DNA of 25,186 bases from a virus (IMGVR_UViG_3300027857_000057:1-25186), one strand, 5' to 3'. Shown: positions 1 to 16,543, counted from the stretch's first letter. Numbers and translations: made by a program. Notes: a model not told the origin generated them from the letters alone.

Positions 1-1
1 C

Positions 2-1841: not shown

Positions 1842-1869
1842 ACCCACAAACCACCCGAGTCGGGCGCAA

Positions 1870-1884
1870 GTGGGCTGGACCCAC
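1870..1884 (+). promoter_or_regulatory. Hairpin in the scaffold-gene leader
   Basis: GTGGG (1870-1874) and CCCAC (1880-1884) form a 5 bp stem with a 5-base loop. A second CCCAC at 1843-1847 could compete for the same GTGGG. It lies in the 93-base gap between the small gene ending at 1841 and the GTG start of the scaffold gene at 1935. There is no T run after it, so it is not a standard terminator. A structural role in the leader is a weak inference. Confidence 0.25.
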
Positions 1885-1934
1885 CTCGCCGTCGGTTGTA
1901 CCCTTCCCCTCAAGCGCCCTCGTGGAGATCCAAC

Positions 1935-2738
1935 GTGGCAGACACCAGTCTTTCAACCAGCCTTGCACCGGAAGCCGAGGGCACCCCCACGCCCCAGAGC
2001 CAGACCGAGGATGGTGGAACACCAACCCCAGAAGAGCCGAGTGTCGAGACCCCCGCGGTTGAGGCACAAGTCGAGACCCCTGCGGTTGAGACTAAGGCGG
2101 TGGAGCCCGAGCCCAAGAAGCCTGCACAGGTGCCTTGGTTTCAGAAGCGGATCGACGAACTCACTCGCGAAAAGCATGAGGCACGCCGCGCAGCGGCGGC
2201 GCTTGAGCAGCAGGTGAAGGAGCACAAGGAGGCGCTTGAGGCGATCGCCAAGGGTGAGGCTCCGAAGGCCCCGGGCACGGCGAAGCCGGTTGAGGACCTG
2301 ACGGTTGAGCAGCGCGCTGCTGCGCTGGCCTCCCAGCGGGAATTCGACAAGAACTGCAACGACATCTACGACAAGGGCAAAGCGCAGTATGCGGACTTCG
2401 ATGTCGCGCTGCGCTCCTACCAGAACCTGGGCGGACTGACGCCCCAGTTCATCGAGGCCGCGATTGAGGCCGGCAACCCCCACCAGATCCTCTACGAACT
2501 GACCCAGGACATGGACGAGGCGAGCCGGATCTTGGGCCTTTCCCCTACCCGGCAGGCAGTGGCCCTGGCGAAGCTGAGCGCGAAGCTCACCGCCACCCCG
2601 AAGACCTCTGCCGCGCCTGCGCCGATCAAGCCCCTCACCTCCAGCGGGAGTGTGGTGGAGAAGACTCCGGAACAGATGACTGTGAAGGAGTGGATGGCTT
2701 GGCGGGAACAGGAACTTGAGAAGAGGCAGCGGGCCTAG
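1935..2738 (+). CDS. Scaffold protein
   Basis: This is a 267-residue, strongly charged and helical protein with the look of a podovirus scaffold. The N-terminal third is rich in Pro, Glu, Thr and Val with repeated VETPAVE-like units (disordered). A long heptad-like helix starts near IDELTREKHEARRAAAALEQ. A second helical part ends in a basic and acidic C-terminus (EKTPEQMTVKEWMAWREQEL), where scaffolds usually bind coat protein. It lies directly before the coat gene, as scaffolds do. The start chosen is GTG 1935, which has GGAG at 1924-1927 and 7-base spacing; an ATG at 1896 in the same frame has no ribosome site. The function rests on composition and position, not on catalytic motifs. Confidence 0.8.
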   Translation: MADTSLSTSLAPEAEGTPTPQSQTEDGGTPTPEEPSVETPAVEAQVETPAVETKAVEPEPKKPAQVPWFQKRIDELTREKHEARRAAAALEQQVKEHKEALEAIAKGEAPKAPGTAKPVEDLTVEQRAAALASQREFDKNCNDIYDKGKAQYADFDVALRSYQNLGGLTPQFIEAAIEAGNPHQILYELTQDMDEASRILGLSPTRQAVALAKLSAKLTATPKTSAAPAPIKPLTSSGSVVEKTPEQMTVKEWMAWREQELEKRQRA

Positions 2739-2746
2739 CGCCCGCT
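2728..2746 (+). other. Hairpin spanning the scaffold stop codon
   Basis: AGCGGGC (2728-2734) pairs with GCCCGCT (2740-2746) in a perfect 7 bp GC-rich stem with a 5-base loop that contains the TAG stop at 2736-2738. No T tract follows, so it is not a convincing intrinsic terminator. It could slow RNA decay from the 3' side or modulate read-through between scaffold and coat genes. The rest of the gap from 2747 to about 2832 shows nothing I can identify. Confidence 0.3.
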
Positions 2747-2832
2747 CCGCGTGCCTACAGGGTCCGAGCCCCTTAAGCTCGTGTTGGCCTGCCGGGTGGC
2801 CTAAACCCAGTGCCTAGGACGCCAAGAGTACC

Positions 2833-2888
2833 GAGTCCCGTCCGACTCAAACCACCGAGCGCCACTGAGCGCCTATTGGGAGTCGGAC
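2833..2888 (+). promoter_or_regulatory. Alternative hairpins over the coat-gene ribosome site
   Basis: GTCCGACTC at 2840-2848 is perfectly complementary (9 bp) to GAGTCGGAC at 2880-2888, which ends two bases before the coat ATG at 2890. The likely ribosome site GGGAG (2878-2882) lies partly inside the right arm. A third element, GAGTC at 2833-2837, can pair with GACTC at 2844-2848 as a 5 bp stem with a 6-base loop. The left arm can therefore either cap the ribosome site or be held by the upstream element. The 31-base loop also carries GAGCGC twice. This has the layout of an RNA switch or an autoregulatory protein site; function is inferred from complementarity only. Confidence 0.5.
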
Positions 2889-2889
2889 T

Positions 2890-4095
2890 ATGGCCAACAC
2901 CATACTCACTATCAACATGATTACTCGAGAGGCGATCCGCCTCTGGAAGAACTCCAACGCCTTCATGATGAGCATCGACCGTCAGTATGACGACTCGTTT
3001 GCTCGGAGCGGCGCGAAGATCGGCACGGCACTGCGCATCCGCCTGCCGAACGACTTCACGGTCCGTACGGGTGCGACCGCCTCGCCGCAGGACACCACGG
3101 AAAAGAACACCACGCTGACCCTGGCTACCCAGAAGGGCGTGGACGTGCAGTTCAGCTCGCTTGAGCGAGCGATGCAACTCGACGACTACTCGAAGCGCAT
3201 CCTGCGGCCGGCGGTCAACAACCTCGCGGGCAACGTCGCGGCCGACATCATGAGCGGCTGTGAGGGCGGCGTCAGCAACATGGCGGGCAACATCACCTCG
3301 CAGACGGTGGGCGTGCCCAACGCGACCACCTACCTGACGGCTGGTGCGGTGCTGACCAACATGTCGGCTCCGATGACCGAGCGCAAGGTCGTCAACTCGC
3401 CGTTCACCGAGGCGAAGGTGATCGCGAGCCTGTCGGGCTTGTTCAATCCGGCGCCTGCGATCAGCAAGCAGTACGAAACCGGCATCATGAAGACCGCGCT
3501 TGGGTTGGAGTGGATGACGGATCAGACGGCGCTGGTGCATGTCAGCGGCACGTTCTCGGCCGGCACGGTCAATGGTGCGAACCAGACTGGCCTGACGCTG
3601 ACCACGAACGCCATCACTGGCACGCTGGTCGTGGGTGACATCATCACGATTGCTGGTGTCAACGCGGTGAACCGCATCACCAAGACCGACACTGGCGCCC
3701 TGGCCCAGTTCGTGGTCACGGCGGCTGCGGCGAATGCGGCGACGAGCGTCTCGCTCTACCCCGCGATCATCGGGCCGAGCGCCGGCAATCCGGTGCAGTA
3801 CCAGACGGTGGCGGCCCTGCCTGCGAACAGCGCGGCTATCTCCCTGGTGGCGACCGGCACCTACCGTAAGAACTTCGCGTTTGTCCCCGAGGCCATCACG
3901 ATGGCGACGGCGGACCTGGAGCTGCCTCGTGGGGTGCATGAGGCCGCGCGTGAGGCGTTCGACGGGCTGTCGATGCGTATGGTCACTGCGTACGCGGTGC
4001 TGACGGACGAGTTCATCACTCGTATGGATATCCTCTACGGCTACCTCTATGTCCGTCCGGAGTGGGCGGTGGTGGTTCCCGACACGGTTCCGTAA
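2890..4095 (+). CDS. Major capsid protein, P22 coat (gp5) family
   Basis: This 401-residue protein forms the icosahedral head shell. The N-terminus MANTILTINMITREAIRLWK, then QYDDSFARSGAKIGTALRIR and FTVRTGATASPQDTTEKNTT, is the signature opening of the P22 coat family. The C-terminal part (ELPRGVHEAAREAFDGLSMR, then TRMDILYGYLYVRPEWAVVV) is equally typical. A beta-rich segment near residues 225-320 (repeated GT, TLTT and VTAAAANA stretches) sits where P22 coat carries its insertion domain. Length is close to the P22 protein (430). GGGAG at 2878-2882 gives 7-base spacing to ATG 2890. It follows the scaffold gene and is closed by a strong hairpin terminator, which would set capsid message apart from the tail genes. 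Confidence 0.95.
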   Translation: MANTILTINMITREAIRLWKNSNAFMMSIDRQYDDSFARSGAKIGTALRIRLPNDFTVRTGATASPQDTTEKNTTLTLATQKGVDVQFSSLERAMQLDDYSKRILRPAVNNLAGNVAADIMSGCEGGVSNMAGNITSQTVGVPNATTYLTAGAVLTNMSAPMTERKVVNSPFTEAKVIASLSGLFNPAPAISKQYETGIMKTALGLEWMTDQTALVHVSGTFSAGTVNGANQTGLTLTTNAITGTLVVGDIITIAGVNAVNRITKTDTGALAQFVVTAAAANAATSVSLYPAIIGPSAGNPVQYQTVAALPANSAAISLVATGTYRKNFAFVPEAITMATADLELPRGVHEAAREAFDGLSMRMVTAYAVLTDEFITRMDILYGYLYVRPEWAVVVPDTVP

Positions 4096-4103
4096 GGCTG
4101 AGA

Positions 4104-4132
4104 CCAGGGGGCAAATGCCCCCTGGCGCTTTT
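4104..4132 (+). terminator. Intrinsic terminator after the capsid gene
   Basis: CCAGGGGGC (4104-4112) pairs perfectly with GCCCCCTGG (4117-4125) around an AAAT loop, followed by CGCTTTT. The stem is 9 bp and very GC-rich; the T run is short, so termination is probably partial. It lies 8 bases after the coat stop codon. Partial termination here would give much more coat than tail message. Confidence 0.8.
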
Positions 4133-4161
4133 GCGTTGCGCCAATCAGAGGAGATTTCAAA

Positions 4162-4524
4162 ATGCCCGGTCCCTCGATCCCCGGATATCGCTTGATGCAG
4201 GCGTCCGATCTTGCGCCGGTTGTGCAGGACGGTATGACGGCGCTTGCGGGTGGTGGCCAAGCTGGCGCCACTCCCATCACCAAGGACATCAGCAGGTTTA
4301 CCACGGTTGGTACGGCTGCGGATAGTGCGGTGCTCCCGGCGTCCGCTGGGAGTTTCATTGGGAGCACATTGAGGGTGGCGAATGCTTCCGCTGCCTCCAT
4401 GAACGTTTTCCCTGCCACTGGCGACAAGATCAACGCCCTCAGCGCGAATGCTGCCTTTGCTGTGGCAGCTGGAACGATGGTGGCTTTCGTGTGTACCGGC
4501 CCTGGCAATTGGTACACTCACTAA
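4162..4524 (+). CDS. Small beta-rich structural protein (possible head decoration)
   Basis: This is a 120-residue protein. After about 45 residues with PGYRLMQASDL and TPITKDISRFTTV, the rest is a repeat-like beta pattern: AADSAVLPASAGSFIGSTLR, then NASAASMNVFPATGDKINAL, then FAVAAGTMVAFVCTGPGNWY. This pattern (lost-and-found asparagines, a phrase on pixel-like constants such as PATGDKIN, and a terminal GNWY) recurs in small phage proteins encoded next to coat genes. A head decoration or fibre role fits the position, but I know of no defined activity. AGAGGAG near 4147 gives a good ribosome site, and the gene lies directly after the capsid terminator, so it is expected at lower message level than coat. 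Confidence 0.65.
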   Translation: MPGPSIPGYRLMQASDLAPVVQDGMTALAGGGQAGATPITKDISRFTTVGTAADSAVLPASAGSFIGSTLRVANASAASMNVFPATGDKINALSANAAFAVAAGTMVAFVCTGPGNWYTH

Positions 4525-4538
4525 CCCCGGAGTGAAAG

Positions 4539-4808
4539 ATGGCTTCCGAGTCCAGAGTCAAGTCCAACAACATTTACTCGCACATGGAGTTCCCGGACTA
4601 CGAGTATCGGGAATATCCGAAGATGGTGACTGCGGGTGGAGAGTCTGCCATCGTGCAAAACCTGGACGAGGAGACCGCGTGGCTGGCAGCCCATACCGTG
4701 CTGGAAGAGCCGGCAGCGGCGGCAGTGGCTACGGTGGCTGCAGAACTCGGCAAGGTCTCGGCTGGGGGTGGGGTTCCGCCTGCGGTCGCAGTTGCTCGCA
4801 AGGGGTAA
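4539..4808 (+). CDS. Small conserved phage protein of unknown function
   Basis: This 89-residue protein opens with a hydrophilic part (MEFPDYEYREYPKMV) and the stretch KMVTAGGESAIVQNLDEETA, a pattern I know from small proteins between coat and head-completion genes in many phages (YPKM, then G-E-S/A-V-x-N/Q-x-x-E-E). The C-terminus is Ala, Val and Gly rich. GGAG at 4527-4530 precedes the ATG at a good distance. No membrane segment or catalytic motif is visible. A head-tail interface or decoration role is a guess based on location. Confidence 0.65.
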   Translation: MASESRVKSNNIYSHMEFPDYEYREYPKMVTAGGESAIVQNLDEETAWLAAHTVLEEPAAAAVATVAAELGKVSAGGGVPPAVAVARKG

Positions 4809-4814
4809 TGACAA

Positions 4815-5891
4815 ATGCCAGTGGCCGGCGATATCATCACAATGGCGCTCAAGACGGCTGGTGTGCTGGGCGTCGGCCAAACGGCACTCCCGGATGACAC
4901 CAACGATGCGCTGACGCAGCTGAACTGGATGCTCTCCCAGTGGCGGCGTAAGCGGTGGTTGGTGTATCATCTGGTGGACCTTGCGCTTACGGCAAATGGC
5001 AATACCTCGTACACGATCGGGCCGGGAGGGGATTTCAACATCCCCTTTCGTCCTGACCGGCTGGAAAGTGCCTTTGTGCGACAGCTGGTTACGAGCATTC
5101 AACTCCGGGCGGACTATGGGCTGGAGATTATTGATGCTCGCGAGACCTATAATAACATCGTGCTCAAGCAGTATAACTCCTTCCCACAGACGGTGTTTTA
5201 CGATCCGGGCTACCCCCTGGGGACCTTGTGGTTCACCCCTACGCCGGGGTCTGGGCAGTTCGAGATCCACCTTGCGGTGAAGGATGCGCTGCAGCAGTTC
5301 GCCACGGCCAACGATGTGATTTCGCTGCCGGAGGAATACTACGCTGCGCTCTACTTCAACCTCGCACGGAGGTTGCGAGTCAGCTATCAGCTTCCCCCAG
5401 ACCCGGAACTGAACGCGCTCTGTACGGACGCCCTGAACGTGATCCGAGGCGCGGACCTGCAGTTGGCACGCCTCCAGATGCCCCCCGGTCTGCCGGGTGT
5501 GGGCAAGGGCTCTTTCGGTCAGGGCCTCTTCGGAGGTGGCACGAGCCCTGCGGGAGTGGCCATTACGGAGAACTGGGCCGGTGGTGCGCTGGTTACGTCG
5601 GGGACCTACACGCTGCTGGGCAGTGCCCCATACCAGTTCACCGTCACGGGTGCTGAGATCTATGGGGGTGACGCGGGCGGTAGCTTCAACGCCAGCATCC
5701 TCATCAACGGGCAGTTGGTGGGTGGGCTGTCCTCGGTCCCGATCACCGGCAACGCTGCAGCCCAGCTCTATCCCAGTGCTGGACCCTTCACGAACGTTAG
5801 CACTGGGGCGGTTATCACCCTGGTAATCGACACCGTGGTCGGCGCTCCGACTAACGCTTACGTGACCTTGCTCGGGTTGCGTACTTCCTAA
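4815..5891 (+). CDS. P22 gp4-like head-completion / tail accessory protein with extra C-terminal domain
   Basis: Residues 1-225 match the gp4 family that binds below the portal and starts tail assembly: GDIITMALKTAGVLGVGQ, then DALTQLNWMLSQWRRKRWLV, and later NDVISLPEEYYAALYFNLAR. P22 gp4 is about 166 residues, whereas this protein has 358. After a Gly-rich linker (GVGKGSFGQGLFGGG, about 229-243) comes a separate beta-rich domain at about 245-358 with the phrase GGSFNASILINGQLVGGLSS. That resembles the small beta-sandwich add-ons seen on phage surface proteins. AAGGGG near 4799 is the ribosome site, 6 bases after the previous stop codon. The fusion could place a decoration or binding domain at the neck. 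Confidence 0.85.
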   Translation: MPVAGDIITMALKTAGVLGVGQTALPDDTNDALTQLNWMLSQWRRKRWLVYHLVDLALTANGNTSYTIGPGGDFNIPFRPDRLESAFVRQLVTSIQLRADYGLEIIDARETYNNIVLKQYNSFPQTVFYDPGYPLGTLWFTPTPGSGQFEIHLAVKDALQQFATANDVISLPEEYYAALYFNLARRLRVSYQLPPDPELNALCTDALNVIRGADLQLARLQMPPGLPGVGKGSFGQGLFGGGTSPAGVAITENWAGGALVTSGTYTLLGSAPYQFTVTGAEIYGGDAGGSFNASILINGQLVGGLSSVPITGNAAAQLYPSAGPFTNVSTGAVITLVIDTVVGAPTNAYVTLLGLRTS

Positions 5892-5902
5892 GGGAGTTAA
5901 CT

Positions 5903-6292
5903 ATGGCTGGGACTTTCACTGCGACTGCGGAAAACCGGGTGCTGAACTGGATTTTCACCACTTCCAGCCCGACGCGCCCGACCACTTGGTATGTGGCTCT
6001 GCACACCGGCGCGAACGGTGGTGCGGGTGCCTCGAATGAGATCAGCGGCAACGGGTATGCTCGGCAGGCGGTCACGTTCACCGTCAGCGGTAATGTGGCG
6101 AGCAACTCCGGTGCGCTGTCGTTCGGTCCGGATACCACCAGCAACTGGGGCACGGTCACGGACATCACGATCTGGGACAGCCTCACCACCGGCACGTGTC
6201 TGGCTCAGGGCACGGTTGCCAGCAGCGTGGCGTATTCGGTCGGTGACACTGCCACGATCGCCATCGGCGCTCTCACCATCACGCTGACCTAA
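5903..6292 (+). CDS. Beta-sandwich-type virion structural protein of a widespread phage family
   Basis: This 129-residue all-beta protein has a pattern found in very many phage genomes: TWYVALHTG near the start, GNGYARQAVTFTV in the middle, NWGTVTDITIWDS, then a VGDTATIAIGALTITL ending. Members are encoded among tail and head genes and are usually annotated only as structural. A beta-sandwich fold is my inference from the strand pattern. AGGGAG at 5891-5896 is the ribosome site. Nothing suggests an enzyme. Confidence 0.75.
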   Translation: MAGTFTATAENRVLNWIFTTSSPTRPTTWYVALHTGANGGAGASNEISGNGYARQAVTFTVSGNVASNSGALSFGPDTTSNWGTVTDITIWDSLTTGTCLAQGTVASSVAYSVGDTATIAIGALTITLT

Positions 6293-6317
6293 TAGGTGGT
6301 GGGGAGGGAGACTGGCC

Positions 6318-6800
6318 ATGACTGGGATCATAGTCTCCTCCACCATCGCTGATGTGGGCGGCACGCAGGTTGACGGCCGGAAATACGTGACTGAACATCA
6401 CACTGACTTGGTTGGGGTGGTGCATTCGGTCACGTATTTGGCTGACAGCGGGGCGGACTACAACGCGATATTGGCAGCAAATGCTGCAGCGCTGGAGCAG
6501 AGCCTTCCGGCTGCGGAACTCCAGGCAAACATCGGGCAGATCTCCACGGTTTATCCTCCAGTGGTGACGCTGCAGTACACGACCCAGGCGGCGGTGAACG
6601 CGGAGGTTCGCACAACGTATGCTGGGGCGACGGCACTGACGGCGGTCTTGCTGGGCGAGTATCTGTCGGCACTTGCGGATGCGGACTTGGCCCTGGCGTT
6701 CGGCTATGCCTCGCCTTCGAGCGAGCTGACTGCCCTCCGCAACACCCTCAACGCTCAATCCACACTCCTTCTCAGCGGCCTAACTCAGCGAGGCCAGTAA
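6318..6800 (+). CDS. Conserved virion-associated protein of unknown function
   Basis: This is a 160-residue protein. The first part carries DGRKYVTEHHTDLVGVVHSV, a conserved beta motif of a family common in phage tail modules; the middle is Ala-rich and helical (NAILAANAAALEQSLPAAEL); the end is helical again. It has no membrane segment. Its stop codon TAA directly abuts the next ATG, so the two are probably translated together. A minor structural role fits the context. I cannot assign a defined function. Confidence 0.65.
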   Translation: MTGIIVSSTIADVGGTQVDGRKYVTEHHTDLVGVVHSVTYLADSGADYNAILAANAAALEQSLPAAELQANIGQISTVYPPVVTLQYTTQAAVNAEVRTTYAGATALTAVLLGEYLSALADADLALAFGYASPSSELTALRNTLNAQSTLLLSGLTQRGQ

Positions 6801-8339
6801 ATGGCGGACTGGTACTGCTCAAGTGTTGCGTATACGGCGGTTGCGCAATGGGCGGCGAGCCATACCTATGCGGTTGGTGCGATCGTGCGCCAGCTGGCTA
6901 CGCCCACTGTTGGGAACGAGCGGTGCTTTCGTGTAAGCGCGATTACGACTGGAGTTAGTGGGGGCACCGAGCCGACCTGGACGCTGACCAAAGCTGGGAC
7001 GACCACGGACTCGGGCGTGACCTGGACTGAGTGCACGGGTAACTCCGGGCAGCAGCAGAATGGGGGCGTGACCAACACTTGGACCGCTCCTCACGCGCTC
7101 ATCCAAAACATGTGCTCGTGGATGGCGAACGGAGACCGAGGCTTTGTCTCCAGCGACCACACGCAGACCACCACTGGTAGCCTCACGCTCACGAGCCCTG
7201 GGGTGCTTTCCAGCTTCTTCTCGGTCAACCGAACCACCGGGAGCATCCCGCCTGCTGCGGGAGACATCACCAATGGTGCGGCTGCGAATGTTACGAGCAG
7301 CGGCATCGTGGCGCTTGGGGTTGCTGGTGGAGGGTTTTGGCAAGGGTTTACGTTTACGAGAGGAACCGGATCGGACGCAAATGGGAACTTGAACGTTGGG
7401 TCTGGCTCTGCCAACTCGTACTACATGAAAAACTGCTCCTTCGTCCTGGGTGGGACTGGAGCTATGAGTATTGTCTTTGGCCAGACGAATGTCTCGAAAA
7501 TTGTCCTGGACAATCCGACGTTTCAGTTCGCTGCAGTTGGTCACTTTATCCAGATCCTGGATGCGTATGTAACTCTGGTTGGGGGCTCGGTTAGCGGTGC
7601 AACGATCCCAACAACGCTGATTACCAGCACTAATATGCTGGGGGCGCTTGATGCTAGAGGGTTTGACTTCAGTTCTCTGACCTCGGGTAAGACGATACTG
7701 GGTGCGGGTATTTCGAGCATCTTTATGGCCACGCTCTCGAATTGTAAGCTGTCGGCGACCCTGAGCATCATCGGGGGTTCGCCCACGGCTCCAGATGACT
7801 TTAAGCTGGATGTGGTTAACTGTGATAGCGCAGCCACGGGCTATCGGAATGAGCGCCATCGCTACCAGGGCGACCTGACGACTGAGACCACCATCACCAG
7901 GACTGGTGGCGCCAGCGACGGCGTGCAAAAGGTCTCGCACAAGGTCGTGACGACCGCTAACGCCAGTATCAACAACCCGTTTGAGTGCTTCCCACTGTTT
8001 ATCTGGAACCCCACCACTGGGAGTTCCAAGACCCTCACGATTGAGTTTATTAGCAGCGGCACGCTGAATAATGATGATATCTGGGTGGAAGTGGACTATC
8101 TGGGGAGTTCGAGTACTCCCATCGCTTCGTTTGTGAACAACACTATCACCACTCGTTTGACCACGCACGCAGCCCAGACAAGCTCGGCGGCTGGTTGGGA
8201 TAGTTCGCCCGCGACGCCGGTCACACAGAAACTGACGGTGAGTTTCACCGCACAGCTTGCTGGGTTGGTGCGGGCGCAGGTGAAAGTAGCCAAGGCCTCG
8301 ACCACAGTTTACGTGGATCCCCTCATCACGCTGACCTAG
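6801..8339 (+). CDS. Large virion protein with N-terminal carbohydrate-binding-like module
   Basis: This 512-residue protein opens with MADWYCSSVAYTAVAQWAAS and continues with YAVGAIVRQLATPTVGNERC, then GGTEPTWTLTKAGTTTDSGV and TWTECTG. This W...Y..G..V / EP.W / GTTTDxGVTWTE pattern resembles carbohydrate-binding modules of the CBM5/12 type found on phage structural proteins. The rest is beta-rich with single-strand turns (MKNCSFVLGG, ILDNPTF-like phrases) that suggest a beta-helix or stacked-sheet body, and the last 130 residues form another beta domain. Related phage proteins begin with almost the same words. It is probably a tail or head appendage that touches the cell surface. Ribosome site GCGAGG near 6789; no signal peptide. 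Confidence 0.7.
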   Translation: MADWYCSSVAYTAVAQWAASHTYAVGAIVRQLATPTVGNERCFRVSAITTGVSGGTEPTWTLTKAGTTTDSGVTWTECTGNSGQQQNGGVTNTWTAPHALIQNMCSWMANGDRGFVSSDHTQTTTGSLTLTSPGVLSSFFSVNRTTGSIPPAAGDITNGAAANVTSSGIVALGVAGGGFWQGFTFTRGTGSDANGNLNVGSGSANSYYMKNCSFVLGGTGAMSIVFGQTNVSKIVLDNPTFQFAAVGHFIQILDAYVTLVGGSVSGATIPTTLITSTNMLGALDARGFDFSSLTSGKTILGAGISSIFMATLSNCKLSATLSIIGGSPTAPDDFKLDVVNCDSAATGYRNERHRYQGDLTTETTITRTGGASDGVQKVSHKVVTTANASINNPFECFPLFIWNPTTGSSKTLTIEFISSGTLNNDDIWVEVDYLGSSSTPIASFVNNTITTRLTTHAAQTSSAAGWDSSPATPVTQKLTVSFTAQLAGLVRAQVKVAKASTTVYVDPLITLT

Positions 8340-8348
8340 GAGGGGGAC

Positions 8349-9161
8349 ATGGGGAATAAGCAATATGCCATTCCCACTCCAGGTGGTGTGGCGTACGTTA
8401 CTGAGAACAACGAAGACCAGCAGTATTTGCTGCCAAACGCTGCGTATTTGGCGGACACTGGCGGGGTAGCGAGGGCACTCACGGCGACGCTGGCACCGAG
8501 CAGTGTGCTGGCGCTTGCGCTGCATGGGGCAAGAGCGGTCAGCGGGGCGATTGCGCCGACCAGTGTGGTTGCGGCGAGTATCGCTCGGGGACGGGCGCTT
8601 CAAGAGTCCATTGTCCCGTCGAGTGCACTGGCCGCTACGCTCAAAGGCACGCATGTTCTTGCTGAGGCAATTGCGCCGACGAGCGTACTAGCCGCTGCAC
8701 TAACAAGGTCCCGAGCACTTGCACCGGCGTTTAACCCAACGAGTTTGCTGGTAGGGGGTCTCTCCAGGAACATTCCACTGACCGCTGCATTGGCCTCGCA
8801 CATTGCGCTTGTGGATGGGATTACCAAGGGCCGGACGATTATCTGGACTCCCACTCCCACCAGCGTCCTGGCGGTGACGGTGCAGAGATACCGAGCCCTT
8901 AGTGTGGCGATGACCCCAACCTCGCTCCTGGGGGCAGGCCAACACAAAGGCCTCTACATCAACATTGGACCGAATACCAGTATACTTTCCGCGCAGCTGC
9001 GCAATCGGACCTTGGTGTGTGCGATCGCTCCGCGTTCGGTTTTGGCTGTGGCTCAAGTTCGACTCAAGGGCCTTAGCGCGAACATCACCCCCACCTCGAC
9101 AGTGGGCTCGCCAGTTGTCATGGGTTCTCGCAGGCGCCCTTCGCTTACAATGGTGGACTGA
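8349..9161 (+). CDS. 20-residue-repeat protein, probable fibre component
   Basis: This is a 270-residue protein. Residues 1-40 contain PGGVAYVTEN and QQYLLPNAAYLADTG, a paired Y/E-T motif I know from phage appendage proteins. Residues 42-259 are eleven tandem units of 20 residues (one of 18) with consensus RALxxAIAPTSxLAAALxRG; a short basic tail SRRRPSLTMVD follows. The alternating hydrophobic pattern and invariant P-T-S turn suggest a beta-solenoid or stacked-strand rod. AGGAGGGGG just upstream is a very strong ribosome site. The same unit continues in the next gene (twelve copies) and once in the one after, so the three are likely one adsorption structure. A structural role is inferred; no enzyme motif is seen. 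Confidence 0.75.
   Translation: MGNKQYAIPTPGGVAYVTENNEDQQYLLPNAAYLADTGGVARALTATLAPSSVLALALHGARAVSGAIAPTSVVAASIARGRALQESIVPSSALAATLKGTHVLAEAIAPTSVLAAALTRSRALAPAFNPTSLLVGGLSRNIPLTAALASHIALVDGITKGRTIIWTPTPTSVLAVTVQRYRALSVAMTPTSLLGAGQHKGLYINIGPNTSILSAQLRNRTLVCAIAPRSVLAVAQVRLKGLSANITPTSTVGSPVVMGSRRRPSLTMVD
8472..9125 (+). repeat. Eleven coding repeats of about 60 bases (20 residues)
   Basis: Units align on the A/T-P-T/S-S turn (residues 42-259 of the gene at 8349). Codons differ between units, so the repeats are old at the DNA level although the protein pattern is well kept, which argues for selection on structure. One unit (near residues 142-161) has lost the PTS turn, and one is 18 residues long. 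Confidence 0.85.
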
Positions 9162-11195
9162 ATGAAGATCAATCTGCTAGGAGGCACGTATCAAGCACGG
9201 AGCGTCATTGCGAGCGCTCAGCGGTGCTTGAACCTGTTTCTCCAGCGGACGCCACTGGAGCAAGGGGAACCGAGTCCGGCGATACATTTGCCTGCACCGG
9301 GACTGGTGCCGCTGAGCACCCCGTTTCAGGCCATGTCGATGGGGTTCAAGCCTACGTCGCAGGTGAACGCGGCGTTGGTGCGCTGGAGGCCTGCGGCCCT
9401 TTCCATCTCGTGGGCACCCAAAAGTACTCTGGTCGCGACGCTACGGCGCTTGCGTCCACTTGTCATCAACTACAACATGACGAGTGTTTGGAGCCCTGCG
9501 CTCGGAAAAAACCTACTGGAGAACATCAACCCGGTGAGTGCGCTCAGTGGCACTCTTGCGCGCTCCCGCCCACTGAGCGAGGACATCAGCCCGAGTTCGT
9601 TCCAAGTTGGGGCGATTGGTGACATCCTGGCAGCTGGGCACATTGCAGAAGGACTCCTTCCAATGTCTCACCTAGTTGCTATTATGCACAAGAAGGGAGC
9701 CCTCACGTGGGCGATTGCTCCGACCAGTGCACAAGCGGCCACCTCCCACCGGGCACGGCCGCTGGCGGAAGCGGTGGCATCGACGAGTGCCCTGGCGGCA
9801 ACAGCCCTTAACTCGCACCTGAATGGTGGGGCCATTGTCCCGACGAGTGCGGTTGCGGGTACTCTCGGGCGGAAGCGTCCGGCCAGTGCTGCGCTTGTGC
9901 CGAGGAGTGCTCAGGCGGTGGCTGTGGGGAGGAAACGGCAGCTCAGTGCCGCTGTGGTTCCGAAGAGCGCCCAAGCCGGTACGCTGCACTCGCTGGGAAG
10001 GATGGCAGCGACGATCTCGCCGACCTCGAAGCTTGGCGCTACGCTTACCCCCAATGGGGCCGGGACTGGGTATTATACCGCTGTGCGGAACTGGTACGTT
10101 GCCACCAACGGCAGCGATACAAGCGGGACTGGGACCCAGACTCTGCCGTGGGCTACGATCCAGGGCGCCAATAATAGTGGAAAGCTCCAGGCCGGCGACG
10201 TGGTCAACGTGGCGCCAGGGGTGTACTTTACCACCGGCTACGGGCTCACAGCGGGCGGCAACACCAACAGCCTCACGGGGTATGTGGTCTACCGGAGCAC
10301 GACGCCCTTCGGTGCTGTCATCCGGGTGAACACCGGCGCGCAGTCCATCATTGTGGTCACTGGCAATTACATTATGCTGGATGGGTTTGAGGTCGACGGA
10401 GGTAACGCCGGTCGGACTTCTCCCCTTACCACTGAGAACGGGATCTATTTCCAGGGCCACCACAACAACGCCCTCAATAACAAGTGCCATGACTGCGGCG
10501 GCAATGGGATCGGCGCGCTCTTCAAGGACTGGTACACGCTGGATGGGAATATCTGCTACAACAACGCAGTTTACAACACCTTCCAGACCTCGGGTATCAG
10601 CATCTACGAGCCTGGTGCGACTGCGTATACTCCATCCGCGGCGGACCTCGCTGCCACCTACCACATCATCGTCCAGAACAATATCTGCTACAACAACGGG
10701 GAGTATGGAGTTCCGGGCTCGGGGCATACTGATGGCAACGGCATCATTATGGATGACTGGCTGGGGTCGCAGGGCAACAACCCCTATCAGAAGGGAGTTG
10801 CGTACCCTTACCAGGGCCTCATCCACAACAATACCTGCTACACCAACGGCGGCCGAGGAGTGCATATTTTTCAATCTCGGAACTGCACTGTCACCAATAA
10901 CACTGCATACAACAACATGCAGGACCAGAACCTCACCGGAACGGAGCGTGGGGACATCTGCTGTGTGGACAGCAACAACTGCACCTTCACCAACAATAAG
11001 TCCACCAGCACCAGCGGCACCACGAACTGGCTCCAGTACAACACGGCGGTACTCCACGCGAGGTGCACGAGCATCACTTGGACCGGCAACGCTACTTACG
11101 ATCCGAGGACTGGGCAGCGCAGCTACAACATCGATGATGCGACTGTGCGCGCTAACTTCCCCACCAATAACCCACTGGGAGGCTTGCTGCCGTGA
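9162..11195 (+). CDS. Tailspike-like protein: gp10-type N-arm, 20-residue repeats, right-handed beta-helix
   Basis: This 677-residue protein has three parts. Residues 1-51 are the arm normally found at the start of gp10-family tail proteins (GGTYQARSVIASAQRCLNLF, then APGLVPL at 45-51). Residues 56-298 hold twelve repeats of the kind that fill the gene before. From W311 a DUF1565/pectate-lyase-like start (WYVATNGSDTSGTGTQ, PWATIQ, AGDVVNVAPGVY) leads into a right-handed parallel beta-helix rich in N-x-C-Y-N-N and GNGI rungs to the end. Such beta-helices on phages usually bind or cut capsule or O-antigen polysaccharide. Asp/Glu residues on the face (for example around GHTDGNGIIMDD) are candidates for catalysis. 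The ATG directly follows the previous stop codon and has only a weak ribosome site, so translation is probably coupled. Its stop overlaps the next start (GTGA). Confidence 0.85.
   Translation: MKINLLGGTYQARSVIASAQRCLNLFLQRTPLEQGEPSPAIHLPAPGLVPLSTPFQAMSMGFKPTSQVNAALVRWRPAALSISWAPKSTLVATLRRLRPLVINYNMTSVWSPALGKNLLENINPVSALSGTLARSRPLSEDISPSSFQVGAIGDILAAGHIAEGLLPMSHLVAIMHKKGALTWAIAPTSAQAATSHRARPLAEAVASTSALAATALNSHLNGGAIVPTSAVAGTLGRKRPASAALVPRSAQAVAVGRKRQLSAAVVPKSAQAGTLHSLGRMAATISPTSKLGATLTPNGAGTGYYTAVRNWYVATNGSDTSGTGTQTLPWATIQGANNSGKLQAGDVVNVAPGVYFTTGYGLTAGGNTNSLTGYVVYRSTTPFGAVIRVNTGAQSIIVVTGNYIMLDGFEVDGGNAGRTSPLTTENGIYFQGHHNNALNNKCHDCGGNGIGALFKDWYTLDGNICYNNAVYNTFQTSGISIYEPGATAYTPSAADLAATYHIIVQNNICYNNGEYGVPGSGHTDGNGIIMDDWLGSQGNNPYQKGVAYPYQGLIHNNTCYTNGGRGVHIFQSRNCTVTNNTAYNNMQDQNLTGTERGDICCVDSNNCTFTNNKSTSTSGTTNWLQYNTAVLHARCTSITWTGNATYDPRTGQRSYNIDDATVRANFPTNNPLGGLLP
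9327..10055 (+). repeat. Twelve coding repeats of about 60 bases (20 residues)
   Basis: Residues 56-298 of the tailspike gene. The consensus matches the previous gene but with RPLxxAIxPTSAxAxTLxRx; spacing varies slightly (18 to 20 residues, with two short insertions). The last five units (199-298) are the most regular. The first unit starts five residues after the gp10-type PGLVPL motif. Confidence 0.8.
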
Positions 11196-12862
11196 GTAAG
11201 GTTTATCTCCGAGGTGGGAGTTATCAGGCCCAGAGCCTTATTGCTGGGGTGCAGAGGTGTCTCAACCTCTACGCTGAGGCGATGCCACGGATGCAGGGGG
11301 AGCAGCAGGACCAGCAGAGTGCGAATGTCATCACTGGGTTCTTGCCCAAGGAGAGCTATACGTATTATCCGACTCCGGGGTTGGTTAACCTTGGCGGTAC
11401 GATCAAGCCCCTCCATGCGAAGTTCTTCCCGACCTCGGATGTGGAGCTTTCGCGTGGGGTTTCGCTTGGTGCGTGCATCAGCCAGTTCAAGTGGAAGAAC
11501 ACCTATCTGACTGGGAACTACCCAGATGCCCATGCGTCTGAGCCTGATATGTATGGAAACTTGGTGCTGAACTCATTCCCAGGCTATCAGGCATATGGGT
11601 TCAGGCCGAGTGATGGGGCGCTGCTGTGGAATATCCAGATCTCGGATCTGGTCACGATGATTAACTCGTGGTTGGCTTCGGAATGGAGTGCTCCGCCCAT
11701 TTACGCCGCTAACTATGGGAACGTGCTCTACGTCGCGCCGATCTGCGGCGGACAGTACTTGTTGGCACATTTCCAGCCAGAGGGGAGTTCTTCCTCCTTC
11801 AACTACTGGTGGTGCTTGCTGCGACCCAATCCCACTGGACGCCCGACATTTGTTGCGGGAGTGTATTTCAGCGGACTGCTCAACAGCCCGTATCTCGGGC
11901 GCTTGAACAAGGTCACGGTGGCCGGTGGGCAGTCCACTAGCGATCCGATACTCTACATCGGGGCGTTTGCTGTTGCTGGGACTCATTCCGAGATCACGGT
12001 CCTCCCATCGGTGGACCAGATCATCGGCAAGACCTATAACCTGGACTCATTCGGGGCAATCCAGCCGATTACTACTCCTGGACTCATCAACAACCAGACA
12101 TACTATCCGATTGGTACGCTCAATCTCTCCACCAACTTCTTCTTGCAGACTGGTGGGCAGTCCGAAGGCAACCCCAACACGCAGGGGGGCTTTTGCCTGC
12201 CAGGGCCGAACAACCACACCAATCTCTATATCTATCTCAATCGGCTGGAGATGGATTGGGCACAGCAGGGGCTTAGCAATAGCAACCCAGAGGCAGCGAT
12301 CCTCCAGCCCACTTACCCGCTGGGGGCGATGCTGAAAATCCAACTGGGCTTGGTGCAGTGGACCAACATCGCTGGGGCGACTGCAACCCCGATGTATACT
12401 GTGGATAATGCGAACTGGGTGGATGGTACTGGTGCCTCGGTGCTTCCTTTTACCGATGAGTACAGCAACATCCGCACCCACACTGCAGGCGCCACTTACG
12501 ACGCATATATGCCCAAGCCTGGGCTGCTCAAGAATGTCGGGGATGGGACTTGGGTAGTGGGAATGACTATGAATGGGATGGAGTCCATCACCGGGCTTTC
12601 CCTGACAACCGCGAAGTATCAGGCTCTTCGTCCGTTTGTGTATTATCCGGGACTTGAGAAGTTCGTCCAGGGTGTGGCTGGGGGTTGCTGGGTCTACCAA
12701 TACAAGGACCTCGATCCCACCGCTCTACACTTCTACGATGACAACGAGCAGATTTTCTGGATTGACCCTGTGACGGGGTACTTGAATATGTATGGTGTAG
12801 CTGTGGGTGGAACGTACACCTATGTCTACATGAGCACCTACAGCACCATTACTCTCCCGTGA
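11192..12862 (+). CDS. gp10-type N-arm fused to a large beta-rich body of unknown function
   Basis: This is a 556-residue protein. Residues 1-68 repeat the arm of the previous gene (GGSYQAQSLIAGVQRCLNLY at 8-27, then YYPTPGLVNLGG at 58-69). One copy of the 20-residue unit (KPLHAKFFPTSDVELSRGV) follows at 72-90, exactly where the repeats begin in the previous gene. The remaining 465 residues are beta-rich and do not match gp10; phrases such as DMYGNLVLN, PSDGALLWNI and QIFWIDPVTGYLNMYG recall PQQ-type propeller blades, but this is weak. The GTG start overlaps the previous stop codon; GGGAGG at 11177-11182 is 9 bases away. I propose an alternative receptor-binding protein or a chaperone for one. 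I do not recognise the body. Confidence 0.7.
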   Translation: MSKVYLRGGSYQAQSLIAGVQRCLNLYAEAMPRMQGEQQDQQSANVITGFLPKESYTYYPTPGLVNLGGTIKPLHAKFFPTSDVELSRGVSLGACISQFKWKNTYLTGNYPDAHASEPDMYGNLVLNSFPGYQAYGFRPSDGALLWNIQISDLVTMINSWLASEWSAPPIYAANYGNVLYVAPICGGQYLLAHFQPEGSSSSFNYWWCLLRPNPTGRPTFVAGVYFSGLLNSPYLGRLNKVTVAGGQSTSDPILYIGAFAVAGTHSEITVLPSVDQIIGKTYNLDSFGAIQPITTPGLINNQTYYPIGTLNLSTNFFLQTGGQSEGNPNTQGGFCLPGPNNHTNLYIYLNRLEMDWAQQGLSNSNPEAAILQPTYPLGAMLKIQLGLVQWTNIAGATATPMYTVDNANWVDGTGASVLPFTDEYSNIRTHTAGATYDAYMPKPGLLKNVGDGTWVVGMTMNGMESITGLSLTTAKYQALRPFVYYPGLEKFVQGVAGGCWVYQYKDLDPTALHFYDDNEQIFWIDPVTGYLNMYGVAVGGTYTYVYMSTYSTITLP

Positions 12863-12869
12863 GGATGAA

Positions 12870-14159
12870 ATGCCCAGAAATGGCCCCATGCGCGGACTCT
12901 ACACAGCCTCTACGGGCGTGCTCTATGCTGTGGACACCAACACCCTCTATTGGGTGGATGCGACTTGGACGTTCACCGCGCTGGGGAGCATTCCTGGAGG
13001 CACCACCCCGGTAAGCATGGCCGACAACGGGGTGACGCTCATTCTGGTGGATGGGAGTGCCAACGGGTGGTTGGTGGACCTCAACACCAACACCATGACT
13101 CAGATCGATCCCACCAGTGCAAACCCGGATGAAACTGGGTTTTACGGGGCGGACAAGGCTGATTTCATGGATACCTTTCTCATCCTGAACAAGCCCAATA
13201 CCCCATTGTTTTACTGCTCTGGGAGCGAGGCCACCACATTCGGGGCGTTGGACTTCGCCGGCAAGGAGACCTACGCGGACAGCATTGTAACGCTCTCGGT
13301 CATCCATTCGTTCATCTGGCTCTTCGGCAGATACACCACGGAGTTCTTCTTTAACTCGGGTGGGCAGTCGGGTGGCACGTTCCCGTTCGAGCGGGTGCAA
13401 GGGAACTTCCTGAACCATGGGTGTGCAGCGAAATACTCGGTGGCCAAGGGTGGTGAGTCGGTTTTCTGGCTCAGCCAGAACCTCAATGGCACTGCTATGG
13501 TGCTGGAAGGCACCGGAGCGAACTTCACTGCCTCCCGCATCAGCACCCACGCCATCGAAACCGCTATCAGCGGGTACTCCACCATCTCCGATGCGATTGG
13601 GATGTTTTACCAGCAGGAAGGCCATGGGTTCTATGTGTTGACCTTCCCGACTGCGGACAAGACCTGGGTTTACGACGCGACCACTGGGTTTTGGCACGAG
13701 CGATGCTGGTTGGATGGCAACGGGGTGGAGCATCGGCATCGGATGAACTGCTGCGCGTTCGCTTACGGCAAGGTCGTGGTGGGGGACTGGGAGAACGCGA
13801 ACCTCTACGCGCTTGACCCTACGGTGCAGACGGACTTCGGCGGGCCGATGAAGTTCCTCCGCTCGTTTCCTCATCTGCTCGACGAGGCCCACCGCCTTGT
13901 CCACAACCGCTTTGTGGCGGACTTGCAGGTTGGCGATGCTCCAAGCGGTCAGAATGTGCAATTGCGCTGGAGTGACACCAGAGGTGCTACCTGGGGTCCG
14001 TACGTTCCACAGACGATGGGGGACAACGGCAACTACTACACATCGATCCAGTGGCGTCGCCTGGGTATGGCCAGGGATCGGGTGTATGAGCTGAGTTGGA
14101 ATGCAGGTCCTACCGCTCTCCAGGGGGCCTGGATCGATATCACACCCTCGAAGACCTAG
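12870..14159 (+). CDS. gp10-like packaged-DNA stabilisation / tail protein lacking its N-terminal arm
   Basis: This 429-residue protein is the body of the P22 gp10 family, which joins the portal/gp4 neck to the rest of the tail and helps hold packaged DNA. The phrases GPMRGLYTASTGVLYAVDTN, PVSMADNGVTLILVDGSANG, FYGADKADFMDTFLILNKPN and VTLSVIHSFIWLFGRYTTEF occur in the family's usual order, and the C-terminus (LRWSDTRGATWGP, RDRVYELSWNAGP) is typical. Family members of this subtype normally begin with the GGxYQARS arm and PTPGL before the GPxRGLY phrase. Here the protein starts at MPRNGPMRG, so about 50-65 residues are absent. GAGG at 12861-12864 with 5-base spacing supports the ATG at 12870. 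The arm is found on the two preceding genes. Confidence 0.85.
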   Translation: MPRNGPMRGLYTASTGVLYAVDTNTLYWVDATWTFTALGSIPGGTTPVSMADNGVTLILVDGSANGWLVDLNTNTMTQIDPTSANPDETGFYGADKADFMDTFLILNKPNTPLFYCSGSEATTFGALDFAGKETYADSIVTLSVIHSFIWLFGRYTTEFFFNSGGQSGGTFPFERVQGNFLNHGCAAKYSVAKGGESVFWLSQNLNGTAMVLEGTGANFTASRISTHAIETAISGYSTISDAIGMFYQQEGHGFYVLTFPTADKTWVYDATTGFWHERCWLDGNGVEHRHRMNCCAFAYGKVVVGDWENANLYALDPTVQTDFGGPMKFLRSFPHLLDEAHRLVHNRFVADLQVGDAPSGQNVQLRWSDTRGATWGPYVPQTMGDNGNYYTSIQWRRLGMARDRVYELSWNAGPTALQGAWIDITPSKT

Positions 14160-14168
14160 GAGTCCCCC

Positions 14169-14771
14169 ATGGCCAATCCAGTTTCCAGTGCTGCCCTCCA
14201 GGGGCTTCCCAGTGCGGACTCGCCGCTTGTTGCTCTCAGCGACGGTAAAATCACCAGCGGGTGGTATGCTCTCATGCGGGCGCTGTGGATACGCACTGGG
14301 CAGTCGCTGGGGGTGGTTACGCAAAGCGCGGTTGACTCGGCGGCAGCGGCAAAGGCTGCGGCAGCGGCAGCCCAGGCCAGTGCGGATGCGGCCCTCGCGG
14401 CAAGTTCCCTCGCGTTGCTGCGGGCGAAGAACCTGGACGACATCCCGAGCCCCAGCACGGCTCGGGCGAACCTGGGTCTGGGCAGCGCAGCCCTCAACAA
14501 CACGGGGGATTTCCTCCAGCCCAGCACTGCCATCCTCGTAACCGAGGTAGATGTGGGTGCGAACAAGGTGGTGGGAGCACGGCAGACCGGTTGGACCGCT
14601 CCCACCGGCAGCCCTTCTCGTGGCACCTTCAACGCCTCGTGGACTCAGTCCATCTCCAACCCTCCTACCCAGGCTGAAGTCCAGGCCCTTGTCACCCAGA
14701 TCCAAGTGCTGAGCACGCGCTTGGCGGCGTTGGAGGTTGACCTCACCACTCACGGGCTGATTGGCGCTTAA
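14169..14771 (+). CDS. Fibre-like or tail-needle-like structural protein
   Basis: This is a 200-residue protein. The start (ALSDGKITSGWYALMRALW, then IRTGQSLG) is a known opening of small proteins encoded after gp10-type genes. Next come an Ala-rich helix (SAAAAKAAAAAAQASADAAL), a LDDIPSPSTARANLGLGSAA phrase as in fibre linkers, and a beta segment with RQTGWTAPTGSPSRGTF. It ends in a heptad-like helix (VQALVTQIQVLSTRLAALEV) and LTTHGLIGA. Coiled coil plus the fibre phrase suggests a trimeric shaft or needle. GGAG at 14159-14162 overlaps the previous stop codon. In P22 the needle gp26 also follows gp10, but sequence similarity is not evident to me. Confidence 0.7.
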   Translation: MANPVSSAALQGLPSADSPLVALSDGKITSGWYALMRALWIRTGQSLGVVTQSAVDSAAAAKAAAAAAQASADAALAASSLALLRAKNLDDIPSPSTARANLGLGSAALNNTGDFLQPSTAILVTEVDVGANKVVGARQTGWTAPTGSPSRGTFNASWTQSISNPPTQAEVQALVTQIQVLSTRLAALEVDLTTHGLIGA

Positions 14772-14865
14772 GGGGATCTGGGACCACAGCTTGGGTGGGG
14801 CGTGTGTCGTGGTGGGTTGATTGCTGGCGGGACGGTGTTACCCTTCCGCTGAGGAGAACTCGGTA

Positions 14866-15402
14866 ATGCGTAACTTCCATCAGTTGCTTTCAGGCATTAA
14901 CGTGGAGCCCCTGCGGTTCCAGCTGATGTTGAACCCACAACTCTGGAACGCCCACCGTGCGCGTAAGGATGCGGAGGGCTCTCCCCACAGCGCCATGGAT
15001 GATATCTGGGTGAGGTGGAAAGAGGGTGAGCGTGGAGCGCAGCCATTTTTCCCCGGGTGGCTGGAAGCGTGGCATATTCTGCCGGCGTTGCGCCCGCTGG
15101 TGTTTGGGTTGATGCAGCATGTGGGAGCGACGTTCCTGGGTGGGGTGCTCATCACTCGGATACCGCCAGGGGGTGAAATTCTCCCCCATGACGATAAGGG
15201 GACTTGGCACGCCGAGAACCTCAACGTCAAGGTCTATGTGCCGATCCAGAGCAATGAGCATTGTGTGAACTGCTGCGAAGACGAGCAGGTGAACATGCGG
15301 GCTGGTGAGGCTTGGTACTTTGACAACCTTAAGGTTCACTCAGTGCACAACGCTGGGGCTGTCGACCGGATCACCCTGATCGTTTGTATGCGAGTGGAAT
15401 GA
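14866..15402 (+). CDS. 2-oxoglutarate/Fe(II) oxygenase, aspartyl/asparaginyl beta-hydroxylase-like
   Basis: This 178-residue protein has a complete facial triad: H108-D-D110 in PHDDKG and a distal His in KVHSVHN (H158, or H161), with R168 (DRITLIVCM) placed to bind 2-oxoglutarate. The phrases SPHSAMDDIWVRWKEG, GGVLITRIPPGGEILPHDDK and GEAWYFDN are those of the phage branch of the Asp/Asn hydroxylase family. The known reaction of the family is hydroxylation of Asp, Asn or other side chains; the substrate here is unknown and could be a virion protein. The start is ATG 14866 with GAGGAG at 14851-14856. The 94 bases before it (14772-14865) show no clear promoter or terminator. It overlaps the cupin gene, so the two are co-translated. 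Confidence 0.8.
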   Translation: MRNFHQLLSGINVEPLRFQLMLNPQLWNAHRARKDAEGSPHSAMDDIWVRWKEGERGAQPFFPGWLEAWHILPALRPLVFGLMQHVGATFLGGVLITRIPPGGEILPHDDKGTWHAENLNVKVYVPIQSNEHCVNCCEDEQVNMRAGEAWYFDNLKVHSVHNAGAVDRITLIVCMRVE

Positions 15403-15752
15403 TGATAGAGTACGTGAAACTTCCCTCTGACGCCACGGTTGAGGTGGACTTCCGGACTGCTGATGAGGTCTTCATCAAGCAGATGTCGGTCAAGTACGCT
15501 GGGACGTTGCTACCGCAGCACTCCCATAAGTACGACCACACCACGCTGGTAGCGGCTGGGAGTGTCGAGATCTGGGTGGATGGAGAGTCCATCGGAACGT
15601 TCGCAGCCCCGCACCCGGTGCTCATCGCCAAAGGCACCAAGCACCTGTTCAAGACCCTCGAAGACAACACTGTGCTTTATTGCATCCATAACCTGACTCA
15701 CGGGCCTGTCGTTGAGGTCCTGGAAGAACACCAGATCATAGGAGACGTGTGA
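15399..15752 (+). CDS. Cupin-fold metal-binding protein
   Basis: This 117-residue single-domain cupin has motif 1 PQHSHKYDHTTLVAAGSVEI (H41, H43, H47) and motif 2 around KGTKHLFKTLE (H82), spaced as in small cupins. G54, W59 and D61 fit the first beta hairpin. Activity of single cupins ranges from isomerases to dioxygenases to sugar or ligand binding; nothing here picks one. It overlaps the oxygenase stop codon (ATGATGA) and is followed by the ejection gene with a 1-base overlap, so it belongs to the same late transcript. Start could be ATG 15399 or 15402. A partner role in a virion modification is inference. Confidence 0.75.
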   Translation: MMIEYVKLPSDATVEVDFRTADEVFIKQMSVKYAGTLLPQHSHKYDHTTLVAAGSVEIWVDGESIGTFAAPHPVLIAKGTKHLFKTLEDNTVLYCIHNLTHGPVVEVLEEHQIIGDV

Positions 15753-16543
15753 TGCCCTGGGGTGCAGCAATCGGCGCTGTTGGCAGCATCGTTGGCGGAG
15801 CGCTTGCGGGCGGAGGCTCTAGCGGTTCGCAGGGCATCGCCAACAACGCGGTCGGGACTTGGACGAAGGAGCTGCAGAGCCAACTCGACCTAGCGAACTC
15901 GAACACCAACCCGTATATCGGCACCTTCAACAAGGCTCTGGCGCCGCTCGCCCAGAACCTCCAGAGTTACATCAAGCCCTTCACACCGGGGGACTTGACC
16001 CAGACACCCGGCTACCAGTTCACTCTCAACCAGGGTCTCAAGGCCACGCAGAATAGCCAGACGGCCAGGGGACTGGGGGTGAGCGGTGCGGCGATCCAGG
16101 CCGGGGACCAGTACGCCACTGGGCTTGCTGACCAGACCTACAACCAGCAGCTCCAGAACTACATGGCCCAGAACCTCCAGGGCTACAACATGCTCACCGG
16201 TATGGCCACGACGGGACTCCAGGGCGCGCTGCAGCAGGGCAACCAGGAAGTCGGCGCAGGGTCCACGATGGGCGGCTGGGGTATGCAGGGCGCGGGGCTG
16301 AGCGGTGCGTATAATGCGATGGGAGCAAACTCCTTCGCAGGTGGCGTTACGGGAGCGGCGGGGCTGATGGGCGCGGCTATGAGCCCGAATGGGGCGGGTA
16401 GCTCGCTCTCCGGCGGCGGGTTCCTCGGCAACGCGATTAGCTCCGGTTACAACGCACTCTTCGGTCCGGCCACCGCGCCTTCCAGTGGTGGCTCCGCGAT
16501 CGACGCTTTGGCTGGAATTGGCATGGGTGCTAACCCGTATTAA
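15752..16543 (+). CDS. DNA ejection protein, P22 gp7-like
   Basis: This 263-residue protein begins with a glycine-rich hydrophobic stretch (AAIGAVGSIVGGALAGGG, residues 4-21) like a membrane-active helix. It then shows the family phrases DLTQTPGYQFTLNQGLKATQ, GLGVSGAAIQAGDQYATGLA and YNQQLQNYMAQNLQGYNMLT, typical of gp7/gp14-like ejectosome proteins. The C-terminal third is Gly, Ala and Ser rich and probably disordered. Such proteins leave the head before the DNA and form part of the channel across the envelope. GGAG at 15741-15744 gives 7-base spacing to ATG 15752, preferred over GTG 15749. Confidence 0.85.
   Translation: MPWGAAIGAVGSIVGGALAGGGSSGSQGIANNAVGTWTKELQSQLDLANSNTNPYIGTFNKALAPLAQNLQSYIKPFTPGDLTQTPGYQFTLNQGLKATQNSQTARGLGVSGAAIQAGDQYATGLADQTYNQQLQNYMAQNLQGYNMLTGMATTGLQGALQQGNQEVGAGSTMGGWGMQGAGLSGAYNAMGANSFAGGVTGAAGLMGAAMSPNGAGSSLSGGGFLGNAISSGYNALFGPATAPSSGGSAIDALAGIGMGANPY

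Follow-up and report, generated by a model that had tools for sequence, protein, structure and literature searches.

A gp10-type tail hub in pieces: copies of its N-terminal arm on a beta-helix spike and on an exchangeable cargo protein in a viral genome

Arm-bearing proteins and hub body in the tail module

The window, i.e. the whole stretch of 25,186 nucleotides analysed here (IMGVR_UViG_3300027857_000057:1-25186), belongs to a group of uncultured short-tailed phages and encodes a tail module in which three neighbouring ORFs hold the pieces of a gp10-type hub (Table 1). The first ORF (9162-11195, 677 aa) opens in translation with MKINLLGGTYQARSVIASAQRCLNLF...LPAPGLVPL, the second (11192-12862, 556 aa), which has a GTG start, with MSKVYLRGGSYQAQSLIAGVQRCLNLY...YYPTPGLVNL, and the third (12870-14159, 429 aa) with MPRNGPMRGLYTAS. 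The original prediction held that the first two share one gp10 N-terminal arm, and a profile built from 163 intact gp10 arms, none of them from the window, agrees: it recovers these two ORFs as its sole matches in the window (E 9.9e-23 for 9162 and 1.5e-15 for 11192; next best 0.15), so that the arm does resemble the gp10 N-terminus in a profile search. A 62-kb record which is 100% identical to the window over 19 kb, and is counted as the same phage rather than as an independent case, contains no further arms besides those of 9162 and 11192.

The 9162 protein, a spike of the sugar-degrading type, carries the right-handed beta-helix domain of beta-helix tailspikes behind its arm and a stalk of repeats. 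Its arm is nearer to the family consensus, and better conserved among the window and the two related genomes G004 and L301, than the second arm, on the 11192 protein, which is most likely the original gp10 arm. A single-sequence structure model of the 11192 protein reached a pLDDT of only 31, too low to be informative. The protein encoded just upstream of the spike (8349-9161) has repeats of the same type as the spike gene, and its G004 counterpart shares 34.7% identity over 239 aa, with a weak SPRY match ahead of the repeats in the latter. An ORF of L134 (4770-5993) groups with it as an upstream repeat protein.

The 12870 protein had been predicted to start at GPMRGLYTAS and to continue as a gp10-like body, which is what the profile searches returned. 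It matches phrog_578 ('head closure Hc3') with an E-value of 9.8e-93 across the propeller and the C-terminal part (profile positions 58-471 of 486), as expected of a gp10/Hc3 family member, and PF11134 with an E-value of 2.7e-5 at 23.4 bits, slightly under the cut-off of 25. As the phrog_578 match begins at position 58, the first 57 positions are absent from this chain, and with the arms located on 9162 and 11192 the protein is a gp10 body and not a complete gp10, the N-terminal arm of the family being missing from the same chain. The gene order of adaptor, gp10 and needle is that of the family, with several genes separating the body from the adaptor, the ring that gp10 assembles onto. An aspartyl/asparaginyl beta-hydroxylase-type gene (14821-15402) and a weak cupin-type gene (15384-15752) are located directly after the needle gene, within the tail module, and similar ORFs occur at the same place in G004. 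Their products may modify a tail protein.

Table 1. Tail-module features of the window, with coordinates counted from its first nucleotide
Feature	Coordinates	Strand	Evidence
Tail adaptor (gp4 / SU10-adaptor type)	4815..5891	+	PF24175 SU10_adaptor E 3.5e-7; phrog_637 head-tail adaptor Ad3 E 5e-11
20-aa PTS..L..L.R.R.L repeat protein without arm, conserved upstream gene	8349..9161	+	Translation; counterparts in G004 and L301 (7512-8267)
gp10 arm copy 1, on spike (residues 1-53)	9162..9320	+	Intact-arm profile E 9.9e-23; 74% / 66% aa identity to G004 / L301, dS saturated
PTS-type repeat stalk of spike	9321..10070	+	Translation; 37-40% identity to relatives, dN 0.76-0.80
Right-handed beta-helix of spike	10071..11195	+	PF13229 E 2.5e-7; 57% identity to C-terminus of siphophage tail protein L302
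gp10 arm copy 2 (residues 1-73, long loop)	11192..11410	+	Intact-arm profile E 1.5e-15; loop resembles that of intact gp10 L188
Cargo 2, exchangeable module between arm and body	11411..12862	+	31% identity over 489 aa, E 6e-48, to L302 residues 229-706
Chain break: stop TGA, GAGG Shine-Dalgarno and body ATG within 13 bases	12860..12872	+	Sequence
gp10 / Hc3 tail-hub body without arm (propeller and C-terminal platform part)	12870..14159	+	phrog_578, PF11134
gp10 C-terminal segment (platform part by homology; approximate start)	13890..14156	+	C-terminal profile matches in other lineages; couplings of model positions 331-340 with 383-411
Tail needle gene, 3' of gp10	14169..14771	+	phrog_1219 tail needle E 2.1e-20

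Intact relatives, the closest genomes and the cargo

In the named phages, including Acetobacter phage phiAX1, Pseudomonas phage PAE2 and DSL-LC05, as well as in L003, the arm, the PGL motif and G-x-x-R-G-x-Y lie in this order in one ORF, which confirms that arm, PTPGL and GPxRGLY normally belong to one protein. Each named-phage record contains one arm, located on gp10, and a search of these phages and of plasmids for arms or spikes outside gp10 gave none that were convincing. Clustering at 90% propeller identity yielded 177 clusters, and in 161 of them a single ORF contains both the arm and the full body. A true absence of the arm is confined to the bodies of the window and L233, the remaining arm-less bodies being cut by contig ends or too divergent for detection, and the survey thus rules out that gp10 bodies commonly start at GPxRGLY without an arm. 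In record-wide scans a convincing arm was single in 50 of 50 records and the C-terminal segment in all 49 other records. Duplication of hub pieces is rare and, where present, falls on cargo proteins.

The two closest genomes differ in their layout. In G004 (IMGVR_UViG_3300020021_000008; 63,215 bases, with ends overlapping by 137) the arm, a different cargo of ~430 aa and the body form a single frame of 933 aa, with a body 70% identical to that of the window and an arm 47% identical to arm 2, while a separate upstream spike gene carries an arm 74% identical to arm 1. L301 (IMGVR_UViG_3300012359_000003) contains the same three genes as the window, i.e. arm-spike, arm-cargo and body, and its body is 71% identical to the window body. 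Between G004 and L301 the bodies are 91% and the spike arms 93% identical, yet the cargos at the arm-body joint are without similarity, showing that the cargo has been swapped between arm and body as a cassette. The 11192 cargo of the window is in turn unrelated to the cargo at this place in both genomes. The fused arm-cargo-body frame of G004, beside its arm-spike, shows that cargo was put between arm and body and that the arm was duplicated, as predicted, and the three-gene layout of the window recurs in L301.

The body starts at the same residue in the window, L301 and G004, and a Shine-Dalgarno (SD) sequence precedes each start (-6.0, -6.9 and -9.2 kcal/mol among the three genomes). A GAGG SD overlaps the stop in the window, L301 has an AAGGAG SD with the stop/start overlap TGATG, and in G004 CAGGAG precedes an in-frame ATG inside the ORF, with no stop. 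This G004 codon has the second-best SD among 20 in-frame ATGs, suggesting that an arm-less hub chain may be made in this genome too. The comparison is suggestive only, with 3 of 91 internal ATGs in the window structural genes scoring -7.0 or better.

A sequencing error or frameshift as the cause of the split was rejected on the basis of L301, L233 and the SD at the junction. An intein or intron in gp10 was also rejected, as the cargo appears by homology to be a siphophage tail-hub domain and the body has a stop, SD and start of its own.

L302, an unrelated siphophage, encodes a 1710-aa tail-hub protein with Phage-tail_3 and Rcc01698_C domains, residues 229-706 of which match the 11192 cargo (E 6e-48, 31%), while the C-terminal end of the same protein matches the 9162 beta-helix (57% over 383 aa). 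A related beta-helix is found behind a poly-Pro linker on another protein in the siphophage L303. The presence of both window modules within one siphophage hub protein supports, at the level of homology, the prediction that the cargo is a receptor-binding module. The same modules are found on different tail proteins across phages, the carrier in the window lineage being the gp10 arm. A segment of the L303 tail-hub protein (11385-14345), CFLGRVTVATPQGPRPIGEMAEGDEIY...HNYFADGVLVHN, looks like an intein.

Cut sites in the gp10 family and their structural context

The window is one case within a wider pattern of split gp10 proteins. Mapping of inserts on the body profile gave the internal sites 68, 110 and 345, in addition to the arm-body joint. 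At site 345, inserts of 50-408 aa within an unsplit chain are present in many relatives, and others have inserts at 68 and 110. The chain is broken at 345 in L129, L147, L156, L200, L202, L224 and L225. In several of these the stop and start overlap or adjoin, and the final ~70 gp10 residues end the second ORF, behind a cargo of their own except in L129. At the arm-body joint, L233 has its arm, a poly-Pro stretch and a cargo split from the body (junction TAAATG), and is placed elsewhere than the window lineage in the propeller tree. G005, the record of L198, adjoins the window lineage in this tree (support 0.95) and represents a mirror case: the gp10 C-terminal segment, the counterpart of that at 13890..14156 in the window, ends two different cargo ORFs with other genes between them, one ORF being glycosidase-like (by eye) and the other having a weak SPRY match.

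Several further observations concern the surroundings of split hubs. On G005 contig 1-16500 (L297), gp10 is spread across about 12.7 kb. Its N-terminal chain is separated from the last of the two C-terminal segments by approximately seven cargo ORFs, among them GH16-like, collagen-like and SPRY ones. The family phrog_19101, of unknown function, which is matched by the window 12870 protein and by L147 8237-9745, contains the gp10 C-terminal segment at its end (~521-589 of 595), suggesting that it is probably a cargo family carrying a split-off hub end. HNH-like genes occur directly before gp10 in L172 (948-1731), L003 (5084-5758), L050 (6505-7032) and L147 (5333-5998), those of L172 and L147 with a weak AP2-domain match. 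Flanking the L172 gene, 19 codons of the gp10 5' end are present in duplicate, an arrangement that offers a possible route to arm duplication.

The intact relative L188 was used as the structural model; an alignment headed by the G004 fusion misplaced the arm across the cargo. The AF2 model of L188 (pTM 0.90) shows three strands in the region of the arm (residues 23-27, 53-57 and 60-66) and a further seven from residue 385 onwards, and aligns over nearly the whole chain with the hubs of P22, Sf6, Pan3 and Pam1 (TM-scores 0.76-0.86). The window body belongs to the same family as these hubs (P22 gp10 / PF11134 Phage_stabilise / phrog_578), but while arm, propeller and C-terminal part form one chain in P22, Sf6, Pam1 and Pan3, the arm occurs on other proteins, and twice, in the window. 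Mean-field covariation (214 sequences, Neff 121) gave strong couplings between model positions 331-340 and 383-411, suggesting that a chain broken at 345 is interrupted within a single folded unit. Pairs between the arm and the C-terminal part were not enriched at this Neff, accounting for three of the top 20 arm-body pairs.

The nozzle of T7 consists of a single chain and the T7 fibre is a separate protein not known to carry nozzle pieces, unlike the situation in the window. As in the window family, T7 gp12 combines a propeller with a platform from N- and C-terminal parts. The 45 residues of its N-terminus supply three strands to the platform barrel, the part in contact with the adaptor (PMC6702177). 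The T7 fibre dock lies between the propeller and the C-terminal platform, the position at which many relatives of the window hub carry inserts (PMC6702177). In SU10 the chain enters blade 1 from the platform and leaves it to the platform (PMC9509320). By homology with these systems, both gp10 cut sites would be propeller-platform links and the detached pieces parts of the platform. The nozzles of SU10 and crAss001 also have extra (Ig-like) domains inserted in the propeller (PMC9509320, PMC10172136), but these inserts lie in cis, in or between blades, with no split chain and no copied platform piece. The N-terminal anchors of tailspikes and other receptor-binding proteins similarly consist of a short conserved N-terminus followed by swappable cargo (e.g. 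PMC12692247). Such anchors are usually dedicated domains, whereas the putative anchor of the window is a piece of the hub's own fold. A description of a split gp10 hub was not found in searches of open-licence papers, and we know of none in which a hub is split and reused in this manner.

Proposed docking in trans and the alternative explanations

The spike arms of the window and of G004/L301 share 66-74% identity, with a dN of 0.18-0.26 and a saturated dS. Identity is 69-71% for the body and 61% for the beta-helix, against 37-40% (dN 0.76-0.80) for the spike repeats. The spike arm is under strong protein-level constraint, roughly equal to that on the body and far above that on the adjoining repeats, and an arm on a non-hub protein is thus conserved beyond its neighbours, as would be expected of a docking tag. 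The evolutionary half of the original interpretation is supported, while the docking role of the arm, which we infer, is consistent with this conservation pattern and with the G005 mirror case.

It appears fairly probable that each arm supplies in trans the strands missing from a hub platform, which would attach the spike and the cargo to the tail. The hub would be made as pieces. Its first ~55 residues, which by homology correspond to three strands of the platform, the domain that attaches to the adaptor ring, are situated on the beta-helix spike (9162) and on the exchangeable cargo protein (11192), and the hub chain (12870) begins just past the arm. During assembly an arm would take its place in trans in the platform of a hub subunit that lacks one, folding next to the platform strands contributed by the C-terminal part, and would thereby fix the spike and cargo at the groove between adaptor and nozzle, where short-tailed phages carry fibres. 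The likely events behind this arrangement are the insertion of receptor cargo between arm and body, the gain of a separate translation start for the body and the copying of the arm to the neighbouring spike gene. The place of the arm in the platform is taken from T7 and SU10, which are distant relatives, and the presence of two arm-bearing proteins for what are presumably six hub subunits counts against the mechanism.

The main rival, which we regard as unlikely, places the extra arm on the adaptor ring instead of in the hub platform, the twelve adaptor copies offering sites not taken up by the six hub subunits. The spike would then rely on adaptor sites for its attachment, and arm 2 alone would stand in for the arm of the hub. 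Each platform domain of the T7 nozzle contacts two adaptor subunits, with a drop in symmetry from 12 to 6 (PMC6702177), indicating that non-equivalent adaptor sites exist, and the G004 hub can retain an arm in cis although an arm is present on the spike as well. The internal SD and ATG of G004 could, however, supply arm-less hub chains, and by homology the arm strands belong inside the platform barrel rather than to a surface peptide.

It is improbable that gene rearrangement at a hot spot of recombination or homing left the arms behind on 9162 and 11192, so that they play no part in docking and the body functions without one. The HNH-like/AP2 genes directly before gp10 in several relatives, and the duplicated gp10 5' end around that of L172, would fit such a hot spot. 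Leftovers would not account for a spike arm at 66-74% identity with saturated dS next to a domain at 37-40%, for the retention of both arm and body in nearly all relatives with enough sequence, or for the two C-terminal segments kept in G005.

A still less probable explanation is that it makes no difference whether the chain is split. Arm, cargo and body would then behave as a single hub into which a receptor domain has been inserted, its parts staying together locally after their coupled translation, and the arm on the spike would be a minor duplicate. The occurrence of one fused and one split form with 91% identical bodies (G004 and L301), and the unsplit inserts at 345 in many relatives and at 68 and 110 in others, agree with this, but it leaves unexplained why the spike arm exceeds arm 2 in likeness to the consensus and in conservation. 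It is scarcely credible that the split arose through faulty sequencing or assembly, or that it marks the decay of a gp10 gene whose frame is in reality continuous, as it is in G004: although the closest unsplit form exists and the identical 62-kb record is not independent, the same split occurs in the separate record L301 (body 71% identical, AAGGAG and TGATG overlap), L233 splits at the same place with TAAATG, and the stop, GAGG SD and ATG of the window junction stand in tight register.

The anatomy of the locus, comprising arm homology, duplication, split, recurrent cutting, cargo exchange and constraint, is established with near certainty. A broader proposal has about an even chance of being correct: that short-tailed phages have repeatedly cut their hubs at the two propeller-platform links and placed the detached pieces on several receptor-binding proteins, where these act as plugs by strand complementation and allow a single hub to carry interchangeable or mixed receptor modules. 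The pieces would be the N-terminal arm in the case of the window lineage and the C-terminal segment in that of G005. Changes or gains of receptor-binding proteins in short-tailed phages are usually put down to exchange of the distal end of a spike, with a dedicated domain retained as the anchor. In the window lineage the putative anchor belongs to the fold of the hub itself, the hub is cut to free it, and unrelated cargos have been exchanged behind it in phages whose hubs are 91% identical. If docking in trans does take place, it would constitute a natural split-protein attachment system in the virion and would explain the broken-looking hub genes in a number of uncultured phages. Profiles of the arm and the C-terminal segment would also pick up receptor modules that are routinely annotated as hypothetical proteins.
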